From: Planctomycetota bacterium | GTDB lineage: Bacteria > Planctomycetota > MHYJ01 > JACQXL01 > JACQZI01 | Direction: 5' to 3' | Length of the DNA: 64,000 bases | Assembly (NCBI GenBank): GCA_016207825.1 | Contig: JACQZI010000007.1 | Span: 248,001-312,000 of the forward strand | Shown here: positions 44,414 to 45,645 of the stretch, in pieces | How positions within the stretch are numbered: the first letter of the stretch is position 1 | Layout: every line of letters begins with the position of its first letter | Program-made: the position numbers and the translations under genes | The notes under the pieces: generated by a model | What the model was told of the DNA's origin: nothing | Seen by the model: the letters and a program-made list of their open reading frames with translations, nothing else | Databases searched by the model: none

Positions 44414-44485
44414 TTTGAAAATTTTACATATATGATGCAAATGTCCCCTCTCCGCATTCCAAAACCCCCCTCCCCTGATTTTCAA

Positions 44486-44771
44486 GGTGCCGGTTGGGAT
44501 ACTTTTTGGAGCACATCCCCATACCTCTTCGTGCAGTTCTAGATAGATTTAGGTGCAGTTTCCCAGCCCTTTTGGAGCCCGTCCCCAGCCCTTTAGGTGC
44601 CGGTCCATAGGGATTTTGGAGCCGTTCCCCGGGATTCTTGGAGCCGCTTTCCATACCTTTTGGGGCAGTTTCCCGTAACTCTTGGAGCCGTTCGGGGTAG
44701 CTCTTCGAGCCGCTTGGGATAACTTTTGGAGCCGTTTGGGATAGATTTTAAAGCCGCATCCCCACCCTACC
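44486..44771. repeat. Second 22-bp tandem array (13 units)
   Basis: Thirteen units of exactly 22 bp, starting every 22 bp from 44486 to 44750, with no indels. Consensus GG(A/T)GCCGTT then CCCC or GGGA then a variable part ending in CTTTT; the last unit is decayed. Positions 10-13 switch between a C-run and a G-run, so different units could pair with each other. The C-rich leader CCCCCCTCCCCTGA stands at 44465-44478, like that before the array at 607. No protein frame or unique spacers. Confidence 0.9.
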
Positions 44772-44806
44772 CCGTATATAGAGGGGCACCCTAAGACTCA
44801 TTTTAA

Positions 44807-44838
44807 GTTCAAAGGTTCAAGGATTAAAGGGTTAAAGG
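44807..44838. repeat. 8-bp phased repeat before the gene at 44860
   Basis: Four 8-bp units GTTCAAAG, GTTCAAGG, ATTAAAGG, GTTAAAGG, followed by the ribosome-site region of the next gene. Confidence 0.7.
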
Positions 44839-44859: not shown

Positions 44860-45645
44860 ATGGAAAACGATGATGAAAAGGCGATATCAAGGATTAAGGT
44901 GCGGGTATTTATACCGGATGAACCGCCTGCGGAGTATCTGGAGAAATGGAAGCGCTCCATGATAGAAGCCGGCCCCAGGATGGGCAGGAATCTTAAAGCA
45001 TCCATCTCCGGCTTAGGCGATTATGCACAAAAGATGGCTAAGCCTACTATCAAGAACAAGATTGAATTCCTTAACCCCAATTACCGCACCAAACGCGGCA
45101 AGACATTCGAGAATATTATCAACAGCATGATAACCAATATCCCCGAAGCCTACGGCAAATTCAAGGATAATACCGAACGGATATTTGAAACCGTGGACGG
45201 GGAAGCCGCCAAAAGATTCGCAGAAAAGATTGAGCAAGAGGCGTATTGGACGGCGTTAAAAATAAGCCAGACGGCATTGCCCTTTGGCGGTTATAAGAAT
45301 ATCGTGAGGGGCGTAGTGCCCTTTGCCGCCCGTTGGCTGACCGGAGATTTAACGGTCATGGAGTTGCTGACCAAATCGGATATCTATTACGGAAGGCATC
45401 CGGTTTTAATAACACAGCCGGAGCGATCCGGGGAATTCAGGAAAAGGCTGATTAACCGGATTAAAAAAGCCGGGTCGAGGATAGTCCAAACGACCGAGAA
45501 AAACAAGGAACGTGTCATCGCCGAAGAAAACGCCTCGACCAATCAATTAGTTAAAGACTATGCTTTGGAAGAGCTTGACGTGAGCGTGAATTTTGTCCTC
45601 GAAACCACACAGCTATATCTGGATATTCAGGTTAGTCAACTGTAG
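44860..45645 (+). CDS. Hypothetical protein, unknown
   Basis: 261 residues, soluble, no recognised family. An N-terminal Pro/Glu stretch (VFIPDEPPAEYLEKW), a basic middle region (about 40-110) and a Lys/Arg-rich helical C-terminal half with one hydrophobic stretch (about 145-165, TALPFGGYKNIVRGVVPFAARW). AAAGGAAGGG precedes the ATG. It directly follows the second 22-bp array and the 8-bp phased repeat. Codon use is less AT-rich than DUF6979. Confidence 0.65.
   Translation: MENDDEKAISRIKVRVFIPDEPPAEYLEKWKRSMIEAGPRMGRNLKASISGLGDYAQKMAKPTIKNKIEFLNPNYRTKRGKTFENIINSMITNIPEAYGKFKDNTERIFETVDGEAAKRFAEKIEQEAYWTALKISQTALPFGGYKNIVRGVVPFAARWLTGDLTVMELLTKSDIYYGRHPVLITQPERSGEFRKRLINRIKKAGSRIVQTTEKNKERVIAEENASTNQLVKDYALEELDVSVNFVLETTQLYLDIQVSQL

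Follow-up and report, generated by a model that had tools for sequence, protein, structure and literature searches.

The window (the whole 64-kb stretch of DNA analysed here) carries two members of a class of intergenic tandem arrays whose unit sequence differs from array to array and which share their period, 22 bp. By this period they constitute a single class, in which both the spacing and the array-specific consensus columns are constrained. These features suggest that the spacing is read by a putative protein, once in every two helical turns. We give about even odds (a probability of roughly 0.5) to the reading that these are helically phased protein-binding arrays, carried on dispersed and possibly mobile noncoding elements that are specific to this lineage.

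A class of arrays defined by period

The array at 44486–44771, with a consensus unit of approximately GGAGCCGTTtCCCATAcCTTTT, is tiled by 13 units at exactly 22 bp without an indel, as originally predicted, and the switching between C-runs and G-runs that had been remarked upon is also visible (about eight C-run units and four G-run units). When the array is compared with itself in a sliding window of 110 bp, lag 22 gives the best identity, 0.70; across the entire 64 kb the other lags between 15 and 39 reach at most 0.47. A DNA search with this array returned its own copies only. The first array of the window, at 594–835 (core at about 607–826), has an unrelated unit that contains the palindrome TAGGAnnCCTA. 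A related array lies at L196:12113-12420, with 67.9% identity over 252 bp and 81 substitutions without a gap.

The original prediction also held that two arrays of the same period in one window point to one class of element, and both a period census and the occurrence of such arrays across the order bear this out. The genome-wide autocorrelation search that it called for was run on a sample of 1.196 Mb (41%) of the window's genome (G000; 2.89 Mb in 42 contigs), with periods from 12 to 60 scanned, and was strongly positive: there were 33 arrays at period 22 and 28 at period 44, and no other period had more than six (six each at 21 and 42, and three at 57). The other periods that gave arrays are nearly all multiples of three, and 21, 42 and 57 are therefore explained by coding repeats. 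The 22-bp arrays themselves are not coding tandem repeats, since 22 is not a multiple of three and the arrays lie between ORFs. One weak period-22 call (in L027) was discarded, leaving 32 arrays; as these come from 41% of the genome, we estimate about 80 for the whole of it. The bacterium is probably a planctomycete; a pyrG tree groups it, though without firm support, with planctomycete and verrucomicrobial sequences.

The class is present in four further genomes of the order, belonging to the same genus and to two other families. A member of another family (G003) has ten arrays at period 22 and 12 at period 44 in 380 kb, the congener G001 has six arrays in 351 kb, and G006 and G007 yielded one array each. 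A scan of 315 kb from genomes of the class and phylum, and of 1.38 Mb surrounding pyrG in 80 named bacteria, turned up no arrays. Since two G003 contigs start within a 22-bp array (L041:1-387 and L042:1-385), it seems probable that the arrays break assemblies and are undercounted.

Within an array, unit identity averages 0.66 at a distance of one unit and declines slowly with distance, the mean between units being about 0.6, and the 565 units of 46 arrays show 3262 differences from their consensus sequences. Nevertheless the register is firm, 8 of 292 units scoring better out of phase. A single strong motif common to the arrays was rejected: what they share is an enrichment of a GGTA/TACC core, found in 17 of the 46 (null mean 2.9, null 95% 8), and a weak common 22-bp profile (4.51 bits for the 46 arrays, versus 3.57–3.95 in shuffles). 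Other candidate features were rejected as well. An 11-bp sub-period is absent and the unit consensuses have no excess of dyad symmetry, so that neither is a common feature; most arrays lack the split into constant-half and variable-half columns that a CRISPR-like organization would show; and a complement-flip mutation, suggested by the C/G swaps, does not agree with the ordinary substitution types.

Constraint on spacing and its possible meaning

A helically phased protein-binding array should show constraint on its spacing, and such constraint was found. Six pairs of paralogous arrays differ by 202 substitutions and 3 indels, versus 846 substitutions and 89 indels in alignable noncoding DNA of G000 and G001 under the same BLAST settings, an approximately sevenfold depletion of indels (Fisher p = 1.5e-5) in arrays that were detected by period, a procedure that favours intact ones while arrays with one indel are still detectable in pieces. 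Moreover, the substitutions that separate copies tend to spare a column when the other units conserve it (pooled p = 3e-9), and this avoidance persists within strata of pair, base and CpG (p < 1/2000); for the array at 44486–44771 alone the effect does not reach significance (p = 0.46). That array has a full-length copy, 90% identical, on another contig (C10, L017:13162-13494), and its 13 units are colinear with those of the copy, with 27 substitutions and no indels.

Since 22 bp is about two helical turns, the units would be presented on the same face of the DNA. Rep proteins oligomerise on iterons and ParR does so on partition sites; by analogy, a putative protein may oligomerise along each array with one subunit or dimer per unit. 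Phase-breaking indels would then be removed, while the sequence of the unit could drift between arrays. A precedent for the importance of phase is that Rep no longer binds cooperatively when the distance between two iterons is changed by half a helical turn (PMC4980987). If one sequence-specific protein binds all of the arrays, it would need a very loose specificity, because they have no strong unit motif in common. In its most extended form, which we put forward tentatively and think somewhat less probable than not, the proposal is that same-face protein filaments form on dozens of arrays per genome, that the conserved property is the 22-bp helical period rather than the sequence, and that the filaments act, along with a multicopy protein family specific to the order, in organising DNA, controlling genes or spreading the element.

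The main rival explanation, which we find unlikely, is that the arrays are minisatellites that evolve neutrally: arbitrary sequence would be duplicated by an enzyme or replication intermediate that measures 22 bp, for example through staggered nicks and fill-in or through slippage, and would then decay by point mutation. The lack of relationship between the units of different arrays is what such a process would leave behind, as are the apparent differences in age (the best within-array identity ranges from 0.55 to 0.99), an identity that decreases only a little between more distant units, as it would following a single burst, and the ordinary look of the substitutions. However, the indel depletion and the resistance of conserved columns to change between copies argue against pure neutrality, and it also speaks against a neutral origin that paralogous copies align unit for unit and that unit counts cluster at 9–16. 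Even if the arrays were neutral, a process that duplicates 22 bp and no other length would constitute a new mechanism of mutation; if their spacing is selected, this lineage possesses a DNA-binding system that responds to helical phase and employs a different unit at each site.

Comparison with known repeat systems

Several known repeat systems resemble these arrays in one respect or another. The REP/BIME and MITE-type families are intergenic and dispersed, with palindromic ends and modular copying, all of which is true here also, but those families are defined by a common sequence, whereas our arrays share a period and only a weak profile. Bacterial VNTR minisatellites are likewise head-to-tail intergenic repeats, yet their periods vary within a genome and their copy number changes readily; here only 22 (and 44) is in excess, and copies agree in the number and order of their units. 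The arrays of partition sites, parC for example, have direct repeats with a fixed, helically phased spacing, and are bound by an oligomer, but there is one such site per replicon, accompanied by a par operon, whereas the present arrays occupy dozens of sites, none of which was noticed beside recognised par genes in an unsystematic look.

The plasmid iterons are also tandem direct repeats of the same length (22 bp in R6K and pPS10) and can sit directly 5′ of a gene. An iteron origin has near-identical repeats of 17–22 bp and an adjacent winged-helix rep gene. The length of 22 bp fits, but the identity here is about 0.6, the unit varies, and no recognisable Rep is encoded alongside, the neighbouring P265 family (below) being without an accepted match. 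In addition, there are about 80 chromosomal arrays per genome, each with its own unit and usually 9–16 copies of it, whereas the iteron origins that have been listed contain two to seven iterons (PMC4980987). The tandem repeats of Borgs form pervasive intergenic direct-repeat regions that are lineage-specific and rapidly gained and lost, and in their intergenic abundance, lineage specificity and fast turnover they are comparable; however, Borg units are perfect, vary in length and lie in ORFs in about half of the cases (PMC9879509), whereas the units described here are diverged, fixed at a period of 22 and intergenic.

Because the arrays lack a defining feature of iterons, Borg repeats, VNTRs and REP/MITE families alike, and no description of period-locked, sequence-free arrays was found in the open-licence PMC full-text literature, the class appears to be new, as far as that literature allows this to be judged. 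Repeat families are normally recognised by their sequence; in this class the period is fixed and the sequence is free, and searches based on sequence will therefore miss most of it.

Copying, turnover and neighbouring genes

The arrays are copied as modules that consist of the array and a terminal motif, sometimes with an adjacent gene. The loci L017 and L209 have in common a 317-bp module of array and terminal motif and nothing else; L202 and L210 share array and gene; and in L018 and L206 a near-identical gene and motif are followed by divergent sequence, with a different array in each. The module of the array at 44486–44771 begins with CCTGATTTTCAA at 44474–44485, where the 90% identical copy starts, and at its other end a G/C-run palindrome, CCCCGTATATAGAGGGG, abuts the array at 44770–44786. 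The tail at 44772–44807 is conserved in all three genomic copies: the copy on contig C10 is 90% identical, and the one on contig C6, a stretch of 122 bp that retains the last four or so units and the tail, is 100% identical.

Many arrays abut such G/C-run motifs of the GGGGTA..TACCCC type, another being GGGGGGTAGATACCCTATCCCCCCTCCCCC at 503–535, which flanks the first array of the window. Words of the types GGGGGTA, ACCCCCC and CCCCTCC are enriched approximately 30–80-fold within 120 bp of arrays in G000 and G003. The strict form GGGGTAN{0,10}TACCCC occurs 10 times in G000 (control, 3), 13 times in G003 (2), six times in G007 (2), twice in G006 (0) and once in G001 (0); it is absent from the remaining four genomes of the order and mostly at or under the control level in those of the class and phylum. 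Five of six sampled G000 sites of the strict form are at arrays. Only 5 of the 32 arrays are near such a site, and looser versions bring this to 19 of 32. On the protein-binding reading, the terminal motif would be the probable site of recombination or insertion of the module.

Arrays also come and go rapidly between two congeneric species. In regions of synteny between G000 and G001, where coding DNA is about 80–90% identical, one intergenic region (L193/L255) has an array in both species, with unrelated units, and at three other sites only one of the species has an array. A single intergenic region can also hold two unrelated 22-bp arrays less than 800 bp apart (L017:12700-13485).

This turnover, together with the partial or full copies of several arrays that end at the array or at the terminal motif, raises the possibility that an array supplies the cis-acting sequence of a non-autonomous mobile element, with a recombinase or transposase binding the units, the terminal palindrome or both. 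Orphan HTH ORFs of about 145 aa, resembling the N-terminal part of IS630 proteins, do lie 300–475 bp from three arrays (L196:12751-13191, L201:15255-15692 and L203:13003-13464). Nevertheless, we consider this explanation decidedly unlikely: inspection of the copy ends by eye, where a G/C-run motif is often present at one end, revealed no consistent terminal inverted repeat and no clear target duplication, no autonomous partner was found, and some copies take in neighbouring genes, which segmental duplication would explain as well.

Many arrays have beside them a gene of a family of about 265 aa, P265, that is restricted to the order. In the window its member (261 aa, plus strand, 44860–45645) starts about 90 bp past the last unit of the array. 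There are 34–36 matches in G000, 17–20 in G003, 23–25 in G007, 6–7 in G001, five in G005 and two in G006, and none in G002, G004, G008 or any of the class and phylum genomes tested. The proteins have no accepted match in Pfam, PHROGs, NCBIfam or PDB sequences; a viral origin was considered and rejected, with no PHROG or viral-contig match, and a single-sequence AlphaFold model was unusable (mean pLDDT 39.6).

P265 genes adjoin about one third of the sampled G000 arrays. One could imagine an iteron-like operator, in which the product of a P265 gene binds the neighbouring array as the control or origin site of that gene. The orientation would suit such a role, since among the neighbours in five genomes 17 arrays are 5′ of the gene and two are 3′ of it, as would the nearly coincident, order-restricted distributions of P265 and the terminal motif and the basic character of many of the proteins (pI 8.5–9.9). 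We nonetheless think this improbable, given that P265 is missing beside about two thirds of the G000 arrays, that roughly half of the sampled P265 genes lack an array, that a near-identical gene and motif can carry a different array (L018/L206, above), and that P265 matches no winged-helix or Rep family. Since about half of the sampled genes and most of the arrays are unpaired, the link between array and P265 may be regulatory or only one of shared location.

Some P265 genes have other neighbours. Repeats of 10 aa (ITxxKIADGA-like, of the kind present in fibre proteins, with a nucleotide period of 30) are encoded by a gene that lies closely downstream of P265 genes, most of which have no array, in G003 and other relatives (L261:8637-9596; also L215, L216, L220, L228, L231 and L238). 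At L209:8969-10900 and L018:16272-17955, a trypsin-like protease gene apparently forms a fusion with P265 or immediately precedes it.

Finally, the suggestion that C-run units pair with G-run units as RNA or cruciform DNA, prompted by their alternation in the array at 44486–44771, can be dismissed as very improbable for the class, the folding, covariation and dyad tests all being against it: the array folds no better than its dinucleotide shuffles (z = +1.3 and +0.95), z lies between −1.7 and +2.8 in all but one of 13 other arrays tested, a dyad excess is absent, and the covariation check that had been proposed found two-sided changes in 0 of 57 predicted pairs, in a comparison of three copies with little power. 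A structured noncoding RNA was rejected on the same fold and covariation results and for want of a match in an Rfam search. The exception among the 13 is the array at 594–835, which folds far better than its shuffles (z −5.8 and −7.5) because its unit contains the palindrome TAGGAnnCCTA. Close to this array, at about 470–490, lies a second dispersed palindrome, GGGGGCTATAGYCCCC, which recurs at about 13025–13045 of L017, so that its two occurrences are near two unrelated arrays.
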